Origin: Lobulomyces angularis
Taxonomy: Eukaryota > Chytridiomycota > Chytridiomycetes > Lobulomycetales > Lobulomycetaceae
Length of the DNA stretch: 16,127 bases
Assembly: GCA_027604685.1 (NCBI GenBank)
Contig: JADHYX010000413.1
Span: 3,151 to 19,277 of the forward strand
Direction: 5' to 3'
The notes under the pieces are model-generated. The model ran no database searches and had not been told where the DNA came from. It was given only the letters and a program-made list of their open reading frames with translations. Positions 1,700 to 16,083 of the stretch are shown here, piece by piece; position 1 is the stretch's first letter; each line of letters opens with the position of its first letter. The position numbers were made by a program, and so were the translations under genes.

Positions 1700-4600
1700 T
1701 TAAAAGCTGTACTTCTTAAGTTTACAATTGGCAACTGTAGCTACCACTGCATCGGGTGCAAATTGCATATAATTTGGGAAAGTACCAACCATAAAATCAA
1801 TTTGACAACCTGAAAAACTCCAACCACTATCATCAACTCTAACGCAACCATTATGAATGTCATTGTTCATCATTTTGGCTCCATCTAATTCTCTAATGTA
1901 AATAGTTTTTCCAAATAATTCTGGTTGATTTACTGCTACCGATATAAATGGTTCAAGATGATTACTACGCGACCCAAGTCCAAACTTGGTATTTGGTACT
2001 ATATCAAAACATTCAATTGAGCCAGTGGAAGGTAAATTAATAACTCTCCCTAATTAATATAAAAAATAAATATGATTTTTTAATAATTTTTTACCATCAC
2101 GTAGCTTCAATGTTCCTTCCATTTGAGCTTTTAAATATGTTGCTCTATCTGTCATCTCATATAATTCCCCTGTACAACTTTTCAATGCATGATCTTTTGG
2201 GCCAGAACCCAGTAACAATGGTTTACCATCATTGTCCATATCCTAAAATTCCAAAGTTTTAGTACTAAAAAAAGAGTAAAAAAATGCCTTAGTTCCTTCA
2301 ATTGCCATCCAATATTGGGTAAAGGTAACTAATTGGGGAGTTCTATTTATTTCTTTACACGACACTGAATTGGTAGTAGCCCCTTCATTTGCACAATGAC
2401 CATTACCACATACTAAATCTCCATCACATTGATTGTTCGAAACACATACATCATTAAAGCAGTGGCCAGGCCAACTGCAAGCTGGTAAATTTGGAGGTAT
2501 TGGTAAGGGGGTCCATGGCGTTGTAACTAAAAATCAGACAAAAAAACTTTAAAATCTTAAAAAGTATTTCTTTTTTTACCTGGGGCTACTGGAGGTACAA
2601 AATCAATGCAATTTCCTCCCTGACATAACATGTTTAAGTTGCAACCATTATATTTAACACAATTTGCTCCTTTACAATATCCTGAAAATTTACATTTAGG
2701 TTGAATGGATGGTCGTTCAGTTTTTTCTATAATTTAAATAAAAAAAATATTATTACATAAAGGAAAAAAAAAAATAATAGTTATACTAGAATGAGCAACA
2801 TTAAAACAATCGTTGTTTTTACATAAAACGTCAAATTCGCATCCAACCATGTCAAAGCATGCATCACCAACACAAAAGCCATCCCAAGTACATTCTTTTT
2901 TATGAAAAAACAAAAATTTTAGTTAACAAAAAAAAAAATCATAATAAATTTAAAACCTTGTGTTGAAGAAACTGGTGCAGTTGAAAGCGCCACTTCATAT
3001 TTGATTTGATCTCTATTAACTAATATTATATTCCACTGTCCAAGTGGCAATTCCTTTATGTCAAATTCTACAACTCCTGCGCTAGAAGCGCAATTTTTTT
3101 TTAAGTTAACATTTATGTTACGGTCTTTGGTAATCTAAATCATATAATAAAAGTTTAAACATATTATATTTAAAAAAAAAAAAAAAAAAAGCAGAGTTAC
3201 CCCAACGAAATTATTGGCATCAACTTCAGCCGTTTTATATTCACAACTGATAAAACCAGGTTTATTCTGAACTTGGGCACAATTTAAACTCCACTGTGAT
3301 GTAGGACTTGGAATTATGGGTGTAATGGTTGGTTGTTGATTAGTTGGAATAACAAATACAGAACTATCTAGTTCCAGTGGCAGTTCGACTTTAATTTCAT
3401 TAATGGTGTTTACCAACTGAATGTACCATGTTCCTACTGACAAACTTTTCGTTTCAAAAGTAACACTTCCTTTGTTTGCGTTACAGAATTTCTTTTGTAC
3501 TGTATTCAAATTTTTGTCTTCAGAAATCTTAAAAAAAAAAATCATATATTTTTAATCACAAATACAGATTTAAAAAAAAATAAATAACTCAACTTTTTTT
3601 TGCTTTTTTACTTACTGCGATAAAATTTCCCTCTTGATAAAAATTTTCATAATCACATTTTATTAGAGTGAATCTTTCAGTCAAATAACAATTTAAATCC
3701 CAAGCTTCAGTTTCACCTTCTGGTAATGATGAGGGAACGGATATCACTCCTGTATTAATATCCATGAATAGACCCGTTGGAATTGTAGCATACCGAGTCT
3801 TTATATGTAGTCCTGTAACAGTTGAGCTAGAGTTTGTAGATGTAATTGTTGAAGTTGAAACTGTTGAAGTGACAGTAACGGTTCTTGGTTGGTTGTTTCC
3901 ATTTCCGTTACCTCCATTTGGAAAGAATGTACCACCAGGAGGAGTAATGCTATGTATTATTATTTTGTTAAGAGAATAAAATTTGTATTAATTTTTTACG
4001 GTAGAGGGGGTATTGGACAGGTCCAGCAAACACATGGAATAATGCATCCTACGGGTGCTAATGTGATAAATTTTAGTAAGGGATTAGTATTGTATTTTTT
4101 TTTTTAAGTACGGGGAAAAGGAATTGGAATGCTAGGAATATGAATATCCCAATTAGGCCATGGAGTGCATGGAAAAGGGCATGTATCAGAGTCATCTTTG
4201 CCACAAACTCCGTCTTTACAGACATCATCTCCTGCACAATCGTCATGGGAGGAACAAGGGCCAACTCCGAAGGGTGAACATATTCCATTTTTGCAAACAT
4301 TTTCTCCTGCACAATCATTATCACTCTGGCATGGTCCTGAGAGAATTTTATTAAAGAAAAAAAAAAAAAATTAAATTAAAATTTGCAAACAAAAATAAAA
4401 ATACCGGTTCCAAAGTCTATACATTGTTGATTTTTACAAATTTTTTCCCCCGCACACTCATCATCAGAATTACAAGGTCCTGCAAAAGGTTATTTATAAT
4501 AAGTTTTCTTTTATTAATTAAAAGTTTAATTAACCTGTGCCAAAATCGACACACTTTTGATTTTTGCAAATTTTTTCACCAGAACATTCATCGTTGCTCT

Positions 4601-5951
4601 GACAAGGTCCTAATTTTGTTTTTTAAAAAGTTGAATTCTTTAATATAAATTTTTTTTTTTTTTAATTACCTGTTCCAAAAATTATACATTGCTGATTTTT
4701 ACAAACTTTATCTCCAGCACACTCATCGTCAGAATTACAAGGTCCTGCAAGAAAAATTTTATAATATAAGTCTTAAAAATAATTTAAAGTTTATTTAACC
4801 TGTTCCAAAATCGACACACTTTTGATTTTTGCAAATTTTTTCACCAGCACATTCATCGTTGCTCCGGCAAGGTCCTAGTTTAGTTTTTTAAAAAGTTGAT
4901 TCTTTAGTATAATTTTTTTTTTTTTATACCTGTTCCAAAGATTACACATTGCTGATTTTTACAAACTTTGTCTCCAGGGCATTGGTCATTAGATGTGCAA
5001 GGACCTTTTAATTTTTGAATAGTTAAAATATTTTTTTTATCTAATTTTTTTCAATTTTTATGAATTTAACTCACCAGTTCCAAAATCTACACATTGATGG
5101 TTTTTACAAACTTTTTCACCAGCACATTCATTGTCAGAATTGCACCCTCCTTTTAATATAAGAAATTTAATTTTGAAAAATTTTTTATTTTTTTTTTACC
5201 AGTTCCAAAACCAACACATTGTCCACTTTTGCACACTAATTCCCCAGGACAGTCATTGTCGCTACCACACCCACCTTAAATAAATTCAAAATATAATGTA
5301 GATAAATGCTTTTATTTACCACTTCCAAAAGTAACGCATTGTCGGTTTCTACAAACCAACTCTCCAGGACATTCATTGTCATTATTACATCCCGTATTCG
5401 GATCTGTTGGAGGATTGACTGGAGGATCTGTCGGCGGATTTACTGGAGGATCTGTTGGTGGATTTACTGGAGGATCTGTTGGCGGATTGACTGGGGGACT
5501 TGGAGGATTTACACAAATTTTCTTGATAAAAGAAGAATTTTAATATCAATTTTGTCAATTTTAAATTAGCTTACACGGCAGTGGCCCCAATCGAAGCAAG
5601 CTTTACGGATATCGTTGGGATCATCTTTCAAGAACTCTTTTGGGCACGGAAAATCATTCCAAGGAAGCTGTCCTAGTTTATAAACCCAGCAAGCAGGTGT
5701 AATTTGTCCCCATCCATTACACCATGCTTCAACTTAAGAATATAAGGATGTTAATTTTTTTCAAATTAAGTTTATTGTTTTCTTAAATTTTTTTTTTTTG
5801 ATTTTTTTTCATATTTTGCAACAAATAGTAAAAAAAAAGCAAGAAAAAAAAAATTACCTTGTTCCTTCAACCAATTTTTAACTACATCATCCTGCGCTTT
5901 TAAAGAAAGCAAAAGTACAAAATATATTAATATTTGCTGTTTAAAAAACAT
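1700..5951 (-). CDS. Large secreted mosaic protein: Cys modules, beta-sandwich repeats and C-terminal 3D/DPBB domain
   Basis: Twenty exons, 5' to 3': 5951-5858, 5732-5575, 5521-5320, 5274-5200, 5149-5075, 5004-4930, 4874-4800, 4744-4670, 4609-4535, 4479-4405, 4336-4112, 4057-4000, 3949-3616, 3527-3201, 3134-2957, 2894-2787, 2726-2580, 2526-2288, 2242-2095, 2049-1700. They sum to 3093 nt, or 1030 aa. Residues 1-20 are a signal peptide (hydrophobic, ending LKAQ). Residues 21-88 are a Trp/Cys-rich domain I do not recognise. Residues 93-124 are four PPVNPPTD repeats. Residues 128-376 are ten 25-aa modules of the type GPCxSxDECxGxxxCxNxxC. A Pro-rich linker follows, then two related beta-sandwich-like repeats (about 500-695), three CxxxGxC-type modules (about 700-830), and from about 850 a domain resembling the bacterial-type 3D (three-aspartate) double-psi barrel, with HNGCVRVDDSGWSF and CQIDFMVG. 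In bacteria 3D domains occur in wall-acting enzymes; activity here is unproven. The protein is probably secreted and wall- or surface-associated. The start is the only Met that gives the signal peptide. Confidence 0.85.
2243..2287 (-). other. Non-canonical GC-AG intron in the mosaic gene
   Basis: On the minus strand the exon ends ...ACTAAG, followed by GCATTT, a TACTAAAAC branch-like site and TTTTAG. The 45-nt length matches the neighbouring introns. Reading through gives a TAG stop. Removing it joins EGTK to DMDNDG in phase 0 and keeps the 3D domain intact. No GT donor in reach restores the frame. Confidence 0.75.
4405..5320 (-). repeat. Array of one-exon Cys modules (25 aa each)
   Basis: Seven consecutive 75-nt exons (5274-5200 down to 4479-4405), each bounded by phase-1 introns, encode one 25-residue module apiece. 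An eighth module ends the preceding exon (5320), and two more share the following exon (4336-4112). Copies alternate between a KNQQC type (4479-4405, 4744-4670, 5004-4930) and a KNQKC type (4609-4535, 4874-4800). The flanking introns are also similar at a spacing of about 260-265 bp, so the later growth was by a two-module unit. Confidence 0.9.
5401..5496 (-). repeat. 24-bp minisatellite coding for PPVNPPTD repeats
   Basis: Four in-frame 24-bp copies lie at 5401-5424, 5425-5448, 5449-5472 and 5473-5496, each starting GATCTGT on the plus strand. They encode a rigid Pro-rich spacer between the unknown N-terminal domain and the Cys-module array of the mosaic gene. Copies differ mostly at synonymous positions. 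Confidence 0.9.
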
Positions 5952-11690: not shown

Positions 11691-13208
11691 TTATTTTTTG
11701 GTATCCATAACACTAATTATACTGATATTTTCAAAAAAACGATTAATATAAGGATTTTGAAGTTCAGGGATGGTAGAACAGCAGGCTAAATTTTTTTTTT
11801 AAAAGATTTGATTAAATAATTAATTACCTGCGGCTGGATCTCCTGAAGCAGTTAAAGAACTTATCCAATATTCATTTCCTGGAAAAGAATTACTAAATAT
11901 AAATTATATAAAATTAGTTGAAAAAATCAATAAACACAAAAAGAATTGATAATAATGAGCCCATTGTTTATTATATATAAAAAATCTACCTATCCCAAGC
12001 GTAACTTGCAATCAAGAGATACTCCTCAGGTAACTTTTTTGCCGGATTATTCTGTGAAAATAACAGTTCAATTGGATTACCATTTTGCGTTTGTATTATT
12101 TTATTTGTAAATTGTGTATCCTGTGTGTCAAACCATGTAAAATCAACAATTTTGATATTTTTGAAATTGCTTGAAATTAAAACATCAATGAAAACACTCA
12201 AGAAATTTTTCGTTTGAATTTTTTTGTCATATGTCCAAACCCCCAAACCAAAACCTACTAATCGACACCATACTGATTTTTTATATTCAGATCCTCTCAT
12301 CTCGGCTTCAGTAAAAAATGTCTCTGCTGTAATTCTCATTCTTATTTTATATGCTTCCTCGTTAAACTTTTTGTTCAATGCACTGTTTTTGTCCTTTTTA
12401 TAAAGAACTTCCCATTCTTTCTCAAAATCTTGATTCAAAATAAACCTTGATTCCATTTCCTTATTATTTTCAAACCTTGCGCCAACTAATGCTACGTATA
12501 TCCCGAATTCTAATTAAAATTTTTTTTTATAAAATAACTTATTCACTTAACAAAAAAAAAAAATGGAAAAAACCTTGAAAGGTCCCTGGCTTTCCTAATA
12601 AAAAAAAAAACATTAAAAAATTTAAAAAAACCAGAAAGTTTTAAAATTTTTAAAAAAAAAAATTTTTTTATTATACCAATTTCACCACTGTTGTTACGAG
12701 AACCATCATTGATAAAAAATGTTGGTGTGGATACACCCAAATAGGCAGAAATCGCCATTTCTTCGTATGATATGTAATCCTCAATTTGTAAATCATCAGG
12801 GTACTTTAACTTTTGTCCAGTTCTGGAAATAGTAAAATCATTGGATCCCATAAACACTAACGGTCGTTTTAAAATGCATCGTTTTACAAAGTCCATAACT
12901 GACATATTTGCATAGAGTTGTTTTTCTCTAGTTGAACCTTCAATACATTTTCTTTGTAAAAACTTTTCAATAACTTCAATAATTTTGCTATGTACAATGA
13001 TCCTCACCCCTAAAATTTTAAGGATTTGAGAATTTGACTATTTTTTTTCTTTAATTTAATACTTGCCTCTGGCATGACTCACTATTTCTTTTTGCTTCTC
13101 AAAAGTATTTCCTAATACTTCAATCAGATTGTTTTTAGTGGGAAAAACACAAAATTCCCTCTGAAATTTGTTCGAATTTGAAAGCAACACATCAAATTCT
13201 GGTATCAT
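11691..13208 (-). CDS. DUF4804/MavL-like (macrodomain-related) protein
   Basis: Six exons, 5' to 3': 13208-13067, 13009-12677, 12594-12574, 12509-11990, 11892-11828, 11785-11691. They sum to 1176 nt, or 391 aa. Joined, they give the hallmarks of this family in order: RGVRIIVHS, ISYEEMAISAYLGVSTPTFF, IND plus GxR then GKPGTFQEFGIYVALVGARF, AETFFTEAEMR, YAWDSNSFPGNEYW and SGDPAAACCSTIPELQNPYI. Family members occur in Legionella (effector MavL) and scattered eukaryotes. As I recall, MavL is an arginine-specific ADP-ribosylhydrolase with a macrodomain fold, so removal of ADP-ribose from protein is the best guess for function. That is inference by family; I have not checked catalytic residues. No signal peptide or membrane span: intracellular. 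Two of its five introns are notable: one GC-AG, and one pair isolating a 21-nt exon. It is divergent from the LAGLIDADG gene, with 127 bp between the ATGs. Confidence 0.82.
13010..13066 (-). other. Non-canonical GC-AG intron with consensus donor
   Basis: Exon 1 of the DUF4804-like gene ends CCAGAG, followed by GCAAGT, and the acceptor is AAATTTTAG. AG|GCAAGT is the textbook GC-AG donor. Splicing gives SHAR-G-VRIIVHS in phase 1. The nearby GT (inside GCAAGTATT) would shift the frame and hit a stop within a few codons. Confidence 0.85.
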
Positions 13209-13335
13209 TTATCACTATTTAATAATATAACTTTTGAATTTTTTTTTTTTTTTTTATTTTAATTAAAAAAAGGTTTTTTCTAACTCCAAAAAAAAAAGGT
13301 TATTTTCTTGAACAATTTTGTTACACATTCAAAAA
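13209..13335. promoter_or_regulatory. Compact divergent promoter region
   Basis: 127 bp lie between the ATG of the DUF4804-like gene (-) and the first ATG of the LAGLIDADG gene (+, spliced model). The region holds a T17-type run and A-rich stretches, but no motif I can name. If the spliced model is wrong, the LAGLIDADG leader extends to 13552. Confidence 0.5.
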
Positions 13336-14404
13336 ATGTTTAGAATTAAAAACCTTCTTCTACCTTTTAAAATCAATCAAACTCATTCAAAATGCATAAA
13401 TGTTCCAATTACAAAAATATATGATACCAAGAGGTTCTTTAGGTAGTATTTAATTTTTCGAAATTTTTTCAGTTTTTTTTTAACTTCATTTTCCCAATGT
13501 AGATCCTTCAATTATATATAACTTTTTAAAAATCTTTTTTTTCAATCTAAAAATGTATTTATATGTCCTAAATTTTACTGTAACATCTAGTGACGAAACT
13601 CCTCAAATTATGAACGAAAATGTAAAAGAAATCTCTGTTCATGTACCTAAACATAAAAAACCTGATAATCAAGAGGATTTTGGGCATTATTTGGCTGGTT
13701 TGATAGATGGGGATGGCTGGTTTTCAAACAATACTGCAAATCTTGTTCTACATGAGTTAGATTATTCGTTGGCTTATTATGTTAAAAAACGTATAGGATA
13801 TGGAATTGTATCGAAATTAAAAACAAATAATTCTATTTTCTATAGTATAAAAAAACGTGAAGGACTTTTAAAATTTCTTACCTTTATTAACGGAAAACTT
13901 CGAACCCAAGAAAAGTGTAACTACATCCAAAAGCATCTTCTAGAAGTAGATGAAGATTCATTTGGATTAAATGACAACTTTACTATAAATTCTGTCGATA
14001 ATTTAAATAATTATTGGTTAGCTGGTTTTATAGACTCTTGTGGTAGCTTTCAACTGGAGACTGAAGAATATCCACAGCCTAAAGGCGATACTTTAATGAA
14101 AGTGCGTTTAGTGTTGAAGCTTTCTCATAAAACACCCTCTGTTTTTGATGCAATTAAAAGCAGACTTGGAGGAAATATCACTCATGACAAAGAAACCGAT
14201 ACTTATTATTTTGCTACTTCCACATTTGAATCCGCGAAAAAGGTTGTTGAATACATCAATAAATATCACATACTATCCTCAAAGTATGTAGATTATGTTA
14301 AATGGAGAAAATCCTATATATTGGTGCAAAATGGTAAATACCTTACACCAGCAGGGCAAGAGAAACTTTTAAAATGCAAATCATCCATCAGAGGTTATTT
14401 TTAA
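13336..14404 (+). CDS. Nuclear-encoded LAGLIDADG maturase/homing-endonuclease-like protein with candidate mitochondrial presequence
   Basis: The long exon (13591-14404) encodes a complete two-motif LAGLIDADG protein of the fungal mitochondrial cox1-intron type: DFGHYLAGLIDGDGWFSN, then KKRIGYG, NGKLRT, NYWLAGFIDSCGSFQLE, and the typical end SSKYVDYVKWRKSYILVQ. It is in standard code: three Trp codons, all TGG, no TGA. The frame also opens at an ATG at 13553 (283 aa). An upstream exon 13336-13442, starting MFRIKNLLLPFKINQ, is rich in Lys/Arg and hydrophobics with almost no acids. It joins in phase 2 through a 148-nt GT-AG intron (13443-13590) to give 306 aa. A donor 3 nt downstream (GTATTT) also keeps the frame. 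Such an N-terminus looks like a mitochondrial presequence. The family cuts DNA at intron-insertion sites or helps group I introns fold. Motif 1 keeps its acidic residue; motif 2 has Cys where Asp/Glu is expected. The domain is certain; the first exon is moderately supported. Confidence 0.85.
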
Positions 14405-14669
14405 CCAATTTGCAAATTAATTTAGAAACTATACTAATATAATTTAACCTTCTTTTAATTTTAGATTTTTTTTTTCTTTTTTTTTCTTTTTTAAAAAAAG
14501 TTTCAGCAATTTTGTATTTATCCTAAATTTTTTAAAAATTGTTTTTATAAAAAAAAAAAAAAATTTTGGGATTAAAAAAAAAAATAAAAATAAAATTTTT
14601 TTTTTTTTATTTTTTAACTAAAATTTAAAATAAAAAATAAAATAAATAAAAATAATATTAAACTTCATT
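14405..14669. promoter_or_regulatory. Low-complexity spacer and leader of the FkbM gene
   Basis: 265 bp of almost pure A/T, including long T and A runs and an AATAAA-like repeat tract at about 14624-14656 just before the ATG at 14670. It must carry the LAGLIDADG gene's 3' end and the FkbM promoter. Nothing else is visible. Confidence 0.5.
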
Positions 14670-16083
14670 ATGTCTCAAAAGGTATTTTTTTTATAACTAA
14701 AAAAAAAAAAAAAGGTTAATTTTTAAACTTTTAATTTTGTAGGATTCTTTTTTTTTTTTGATATCCTTTTTTTTAATTTCCTTTATACTCTTGAGCTACC
14801 AACAACTCGGACTAAAAAGCCTTGTTAAAAACAGTCTTAATTATCAATCTAATTCAGAAAATTCAATTAATGAAAATTTATCACTTCAGTCGGAGTATGA
14901 CGGTGAAAAAAGAATTGATTTTAGCAACTCTAAACCCAAAGATAAAGATGATCTAGATCAGTTTAAAGATTTACAGAATTTATTTTGTTCCGAATTTTTT
15001 CCATTACCAGAAACCAGTTTTAGAAAGGTGGAACTAAATTTTAACAATTTTGTAAAGAAAGGTGAAAAACCGTTGATCAATCAAGGCTCTATGTTTGTAA
15101 TTCCTTTAAACGACATTGTTTCAAATGGAATCATATCAGGCAAAGTATATATTTTTTAATATTGAATTTTTTTTACTAAAAAAAGCATTTTTTTTTTTTT
15201 TTTTTTTAAAACTTTATTTTTTTTATAGTCTTGGGAATATACTGAAACTTTACAAATGCTAGCTATTATGAGTAGAGCGGCCTCAAACGGAGTTAATACC
15301 CCATATTTTCTTGATATTGGAAGTAATGTTGGCTGGTAAAAAATTTTAAAATTTAAAACTATTTTATTTGATATCATTTATATTTTATTAAATTTTTTTG
15401 CAAAATAAAATAGGTTTTCTACAGTAATGGCAGCGTTAGGATATAATGTTATTGCATTTGATGCTATGAAATCTAACGCGTTACTTTTTCGAAGTACTCT
15501 CTGTGAAAATCCTAAAATGATGGAAAAAGTTACTTTTATTAATAAAGGTTAATATATATATAATTGTTATTTGTTTTTTTTTTTTTTTTTGATAAGTGTT
15601 TTTAAATCAATCGTAAAATTTTTTTTTTTTTTAGGTCTAGCCGAAACGGAAGGAACCTGTATTATTTTTTCAGGAGATATCAATACAGGTGATGGTCACG
15701 TAAGATGCCCTAGCTACGAAGGAGAAACCTTTCCTATTCCTGCAGATTACCACATCAGAGAAAAAATGCAAGTTGTGAGGTTGGACAATTACCTCAAAAG
15801 AGATATATGGCTAATGAAGATGGATGTGGAGGGATACGAAAAAAAAGTGCTGGACGGTGCAACAAAATTTTTTGAAAACTACAAAGTAAAATACCTTTTT
15901 ACTGAGGCAAATCTTTTAGCTGGTGTGGGATCAGATTACAAAGACTTTTACAATTTACTAAAAAGTTTTGGTTTCGAATGCAGTAAATATAATTTTGACG
16001 GACCGTACTTCCCCATTCCAGTAACGGCTGACCCACTTATTGGAGGAACTGGGAATGCCTATTGTATAAACCGAAAATTTTAA
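14670..16083 (+). CDS. Membrane-anchored FkbM-family SAM-dependent methyltransferase
   Basis: Exons 14670-14681, 14743-15144, 15229-15335, 15414-15547 and 15635-16083 sum to 1104 nt, or 367 aa. The first coding exon is only four codons (MSQK) and is needed, because the next in-frame Met lies far inside. Residues 6-22 form one strongly hydrophobic segment (FFFLISFFLISFILLS), so this looks like a type II signal anchor with a luminal C-terminal domain. A polar stem of about 80 residues follows. The catalytic part has SAM motif I FLDIGSNVGWFS (about 165-176), an acidic motif II AFDAMKSN, and the FkbM signature RLDNYL...LMKMDVEGYEKKVLDGA (Asp282). FkbM enzymes O-methylate hydroxyls of glycans and other small molecules. 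A Golgi/ER-anchored form suggests methylation of glycans on secreted material; the substrate is unknown. The CDS looks complete, ending 44 bp before the window edge. Confidence 0.9.

Follow-up and report, generated by a model that had tools for sequence, protein, structure and literature searches.

The window analysed here is a stretch of 16,127 nucleotides of the chytrid Lobulomyces angularis (contig JADHYX010000413.1, positions 3,151 to 19,277), in which an open reading frame (ORF) for a LAGLIDADG protein is found between two nuclear genes. Comparison of its sequence shows this gene to be a conserved, nuclear, standard-code and nuclease-impaired member of a family of cox1 intron proteins, whose own intron is missing from the cox1 gene of the host. 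Intron-encoded LAGLIDADG proteins are usually viewed as selfish elements whose fate is tied to that of their intron, and the yeast aI4-alpha (I-SceII) and bI4 maturases are mitochondrially encoded examples with endonuclease or maturase roles. In this case, we propose, with a probability of about one half, that the nuclear gene derives from an intron protein of the cox1 FFGHPEV site, that its product is imported into mitochondria by means of an upstream exon, and that it acts there in trans as a group I splicing factor.

The frame at 13484-14404 (+) comprises 306 codons, free of stops in the standard code, contains both LAGLIDADG motifs and matches the PF00961 profile with 85.3 bits (curated cut-off 23.1), in agreement with the original prediction of a cox1-intron-type protein readable in that code. 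An intact two-domain LAGLIDADG fold is predicted for the product. The proposed location between intron-rich nuclear genes was also borne out, since both neighbours can only be read after removal of GT-AG introns and match the PF16062 and FkbM families. Nuclear location and standard-code readability are features that the gene shares with nuclear-encoded organelle splicing factors. The same gene is present as P0001 in the public assembly of Clydaea vesicula, on a contig of 75,460 bases, with one residue of difference before the gene models diverge. A family search gave 18 matches, 15 on the mitochondrial contig C82 and 2 on C126, the remaining one, on the contig of the window (C412), being the single copy off the mitochondrial contigs. 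An NCBIfam search gave no match, and exon 2, scanned against Pfam with E allowed up to 1, matched no PPR family. A group I intron enclosing the nuclear ORF was considered and rejected: the ORF is flanked by two nuclear genes, and Rfam searches drew a blank, both across the window at gathering level and within 12900-14800 with E raised to 1. This negative is weak, as the same library at E 0.1 named no group I intron of C82:1-30000 either.

Family origin and the empty cox1 site

Homology searches yielded 604 proteins, the best 120 of which (P0001-P0120, with an organism named for P0001 only) are the relatives used here; the database holds ORFs open in its chosen code, and decayed or TAG-rich relatives are therefore under-counted. 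Within these best 120 of 604, P0002-P0120 share 41-54% identity with the nuclear protein across 85-100% of the query. A cox1 stretch with GGGDP is present in 33 of the 120 proteins (P0001 counted), and in the 25 of them that were inspected FFGHPEV is followed by non-cox1 sequence. Because these 25 proteins leave cox1 right after FFGHPEV, and the word HPEV precedes the first motif in 54 of 119 relatives, the family is located in the cox1 intron that follows FFGHPEV, and descent of the nuclear gene from the LAGLIDADG protein of this group I intron family is supported at the sequence level. The yeast aI4-alpha protein belongs to a cox1 site at or adjoining FFGHPEV. The nuclear protein shares with the family the conserved start ENIKxISxHVPxHLKP, whereas the relatives are intron ORFs, many of them fused to the upstream cox1 exon, and the nuclear one is a free gene. 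As a separate observation, P0015 and P0019 have no acids in either motif and no cox1 word at their start, and might be further relocated or maturase-only copies.

A quick tree of 125 rows (119 relatives after dropping P0001, the nuclear protein and five host mitochondrial ORFs) placed the nuclear protein within a 16-row set with an SH-aLRT of 97. A careful tree of 50 of these rows, with 19 rows chosen by us as outgroup, did not recover that set; it put the nuclear protein on the 31-row side of a branch supported at 99/99, as expected for membership in the FFGHPEV family. A tree with mitochondrial homologues, as originally suggested, thus sets the gene inside the cox1-intron family and does not fix its position within the 31-row side. 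This side also includes the host's own mitochondrial ORF (C82:9819-9079, in the cox1 intron before TRAYF), the nearest homologue in its own genome with 34% identity, which nevertheless differs in being mitochondrial, in having 15 TAG codons in the aligned part and acids in both motifs, and in its insertion site. A tree joining the two scored 2.76 log units above the free tree (p-AU 0.594, both branches being long), and their sister relation is neither shown nor rejected. The end branch of the nuclear protein measures 1.07 changes per site in the quick tree and 0.95 in the careful one.

The host cox1 gene carries two Rfam-matched group II introns and many LAGLIDADG introns. The family's own intron is absent, with HPEVYILILPGF running unbroken from C82:12406 downwards, and all five PF00115 matches (5 of 5) lie on C82. 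About 12 bases upstream of this empty site is the 973-base FFG/HPEV intron (C82:13379-12407; the slash marks the intron), which we take to be a group I intron by its word AAGATATAGTCC at C82:12454, and whose ORF is broken by TAA codons and frame changes. Altogether there are 13 gaps in cox1 (12 between tblastn exons, one of which is split by an 11-base exon), and three of them, C82:18176-17064, 13379-12407 (that with the broken ORF) and 11190-10039, hold no open frame of at least 263 codons. On C145, a group I match (RF00028, 71.9 bits) lies between two open frames taken by eye as nad5, and beside it is a LAGLIDADG remnant of 90 codons; the survey of introns in nad5, cob and other genes was partial, covering short loci of C145 and about one fifth of C126 plus short loci. 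Other observations on C82 were a second, degenerate cox1-like stretch at 46737-46984 (+), on the strand opposite cox1, and, at 35056-35968 and 67827-68249 (+), open frames that by eye resemble pieces of a family B DNA polymerase of linear mitochondrial plasmids. In the literature collection searched, no paper contained both Clydaea vesicula and mitochondrial.

Codon use, constraint and active site

In alignment with yeast, 14 TAG codons of the cox1 exons face a residue, which is Leu in 10, Ile in 2, Lys in 1 and Phe in 1 (one further TAG falls in a gap), and PMC6131824 states that other chytrids use TAG as Leu; on this basis, the host mitochondrion reads TAG as Leu. No trnL(CTA) was found in all of C82 plus 10 kb of C126. 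TAG makes up 73 of the 203 Leu codons in the mitochondrial intron ORFs and none of 27 in the nuclear gene, which under independent draws at the mitochondrial rate would occur with a probability of ~6e-6 by our own arithmetic. Being TAG-free while that mitochondrion reads TAG as Leu, the nuclear gene is not an unaltered copy from it. Moreover, its GC content at third codon positions (GC3), 0.237, exceeds that of every one of the 7 mitochondrial ORFs and falls among the values of 10 nuclear pieces, according to codon tables for 10 window-gene pieces, 9 cox1 exons and 7 intron ORFs of our choice.

Compared with the 119 relatives, the nuclear protein has retained the majority residue in 51 of the 58 columns conserved at 95% or more, in 38 of 69 columns at 80-95%, in 16 of 42 at 60-80% and in 20 of 87 below. 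Neutral simulations of the same divergence, starting from the consensus of 6 relatives and drawing bases from the intergenic composition, kept on average 29.9 of those 58 columns (maximum 41 in 2000) and gained on average 13.3 stops (minimum 3). The comparison shows that constraint acted along the whole branch, the share after transfer not being separable.

In the catalytic centre, the Cys of motif 2 stands where the aligned domains of solved proteins have an acid. I-OnuI, I-PnoMI and I-SmaMI, which cut DNA and share 19-24% identity with the nuclear protein, have acids where it has Cys, and the pair of acids, one in each motif, of an active homing endonuclease is consequently incomplete. The acid is missing from one or both motifs in 24 of the 124 other rows, including 8 of the 15 others in the 16-row set, and in two of the 24 (P0010 and P0017) there is an insertion within the motif. 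Full-length members with an incomplete active site are therefore frequent here, a pattern compatible with a second function, RNA binding for instance, and with ordinary decay as well.

The candidate targeting exon

The peptide of the candidate exon 1 contains no D/E and 4 K/R among its first 25 residues, with a net charge of +6 over 35, and removal of the candidate intron fuses it in frame to exon 2, the frame being also preserved with donors 13434 and 13446. Donor 13443 scores 3.38, inside the range of 27 modelled introns of the window (1.4 to 6.6), and 15% of the 729 GT and 25% of the 686 AG of the window score at least as high as the sites of the candidate intron. These 27 introns, on which the splice matrix was itself trained, come from a codon-only gene finder, and some of the predictions are probably erroneous; within the FkbM gene the finder proposed 1 intron and reading by eye 4, and those four, three of them with hand coordinates displaced by one or two bases, were excluded from the matrices.

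With equal splice scores, any in-frame upstream exon appeared in 5 of 1000 shuffles and 42 of 554 other stretches of the window (98 of 1108 in a denser scan, up to 268 of 1108 with looser splice limits). A presequence-like one was found in 2 of 1000 shuffles and 4 of 554 stretches (6 of 1108 in the denser scan, at most 11 of 1108 with looser limits). A limit of 3.38 excludes donor 13443 by rounding; lowering it to 3.3 recovers all three donors, two of which give presequence-like products. The joined protein reads KRFF/S at the junction, which we take to resemble a processing-peptidase site, and a presequence-like exon with such a word occurred in 0 of 1000 shuffles and 0 of 554 other stretches. 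Exon 1 gives no indication of a special amphipathic helix, since the hydrophobic moment of its start (1.01) is no greater than the value for the start at 13553 (1.24). The idea that exon 1 was copied from elsewhere was examined and discarded: besides the self match there were 3 short matches on C403, all of them to window 13230-13271, before the ATG at 13336.

Table 1. Positions of the nuclear gene, its neighbours and the mitochondrial cox1 gene (window coordinates unless C82 is named)
Feature	Position	Strand	Basis
Candidate exon 1, presequence-like, 35 codons + 2 bases (MFRIKNLLLPFKINQTHSKCINVPITKIYDTKRFF)	13336..13442	+	ORF reading from ATG 13336
Candidate spliceosomal intron, 148 bases, GTAGTA...TCTAG, T 0.50	13443..13590	+	splice scores
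Alternative start ATG (MYLYVLNFTVTSSDETPQ...), 3 D/E and 1 K/R within first 25 residues	13553..13555	+	P0001 model, codon-only finder
Exon 2, with the LAGLIDADG protein and its TAA stop	13591..14404	+	ORF, Pfam profile, predicted structure
LAGLIDADG motif 1, LAGLIDGDG, acid retained at catalytic position	13691..13717	+	alignment
LAGLIDADG motif 2, LAGFIDSCG, Cys for acid (codon 14039-14041)	14018..14044	+	alignment
MavL-like ADP-ribosylhydrolase gene (PF16062), intron-containing, divergent neighbour	11820..13208	-	ends and introns are model predictions
FkbM methyltransferase gene (PF05050 in last exon), intron-containing neighbour	14670..16083	+	start and first exons by eye
cox1, ~22 kb, at least 13 exons	C82 (68,662 bases):25297-3183	-	tblastn
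11-base cox1 exon GGTTTTTTGGT	C82:13390-13380	-	by eye

Two exons of the MavL-like gene match PF16062 with E-values of 4.6e-24 and 3.7e-18, and 127 bases separate its modelled ATG (13208) from the ATG of exon 1. Elsewhere in the window, positions 1-511 consist of three tandem copies of a 164-base unit with 94% matches, which by eye seems to contain one Cys-rich exon and its intron, as though exons had been recently duplicated. Positions 4337-5400 (-) hold a gene, read from the finder and by eye, whose product is built of repeated Cys-rich modules (such as GPCNSDDECAGEKICKNQQCIDFGT); several of these modules are apparently each encoded by a separate exon.

Competing explanations and significance

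If the proposed role in splicing is right, exon 1 would be spliced onto exon 2 and act as a mitochondrial import signal, and the protein, no longer able to cut DNA efficiently in the organelle, would still bind group I intron RNA and aid its folding, as a trans-acting splicing factor for at least one group I intron. The best candidate targets would be introns that lack an intact ORF, cox1 FFG/HPEV and nad5 among them. A broader version, in which a fungal nucleus captured a group I intron protein, recoded it from an organelle with TAG as Leu, gained an import exon and lost the nuclease, leaving a trans-acting maturase that outlives its own intron, is more tentative, and we hold it somewhat short of even odds.

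Several points weigh against a splicing factor imported through exon 1. The original idea of a basic, acid-poor upstream exon joining in frame at 13442/13591 stands as to composition and frame; the splice itself is a candidate, with an acceptor (2.21) slightly under the lowest of the 27 modelled introns (2.6), a coding log-odds of -3.4 for exon 1, which is not coding-like by codon use, and two gene models that skip this exon, as both the codon-only finder (penalty of 9 per intron) and the database model P0001 begin at ATG 13553. The criteria of the chance tests were fixed after exon 1 had been seen, and no source copy of the exon elsewhere shows where the signal was captured. As for the target, the family does not point to one because its own site is empty, and the suggestion that cox1 introns lack their own ORFs holds for 3 of the 13 gaps, the other 10 having open frames of at least 263 codons, some of which include the preceding exon. 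A TAG-free gene would also be expected from a donor using TAG as stop, the synonymous-codon score of 0.043 is intermediate, low within the nuclear range (-0.029 to 0.294) and above the mitochondrial one (-0.220 to -0.002), conservation could stem from the mitochondrial period before transfer, and acid loss among intron ORFs may be plain decay and not the sign of a maturase.

The start shared by both models, the weak acceptor at 13590 and the absence of the family's intron would also suit a single exon from ATG 13553 without import signal, encoding a domesticated or orphan nucleic-acid-binding protein of the nucleus or cytosol. We consider this unlikely, because a coding log-odds of -2.0 was obtained for the 12 residues that this start adds ahead of the domain, a presequence-like and frame-compatible exon, rare by chance, lies just upstream, and the protein has the conserved core of a mitochondrial intron protein. 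A little less likely still is that an intron ORF of another species' mitochondrion, or an old one of the host's own, was passively inserted into the nucleus, without function and too recently to have decayed: constraint may largely predate the transfer, we know of no further nuclear orthologue, and the likelihood of the tree joining the mitochondrial ORF agrees with it, but the gene is free of TAG with a nuclear-like GC3, remains without stops at the end of such a long branch, and is present in two assemblies. The acid kept in motif 1 and the intact predicted fold would allow a still-active homing endonuclease working in trans on mitochondrial or nuclear DNA, an improbable option given the replacement of the catalytic acid of motif 2 and the one copy off the mitochondrial contigs. 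C412 is short (19,277 bases), as an assembly artefact or contaminating DNA could be, although the occurrence of the gene on the longer contig of the Clydaea vesicula record and the spliced neighbouring genes make this highly improbable.

The nearest published idea to an imported LAGLIDADG splicing factor is that of OTP51 and the plant nMAT proteins, as described in PMC8393795. OTP51 of Arabidopsis is nuclear-encoded, contains two LAGLIDADG motifs, as the chytrid protein does, and is needed for organelle intron splicing; unlike the latter, for which no PPR match was found, it carries PPR repeats, and the intron it serves is a group II intron of the chloroplast. The plant nMAT1-4 are nuclear maturases of intron origin, acting in trans on several organelle introns, but they are group II intron proteins and not LAGLIDADG ones (PMC8393795). 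Among the papers listed in the literature searches, whose coverage mostly excludes subscription papers, no fungal case was seen.

If true, the chytrid gene would be a fungal LAGLIDADG counterpart to the plant nMAT proteins. A nuclear, nuclease-impaired and conserved copy in a host whose cox1 is very intron-rich would show the conversion of an intron protein into a host splicing factor, as happened with the group II maturases of plants, and a testable prediction follows for those group I introns in which the resident protein gene is broken.
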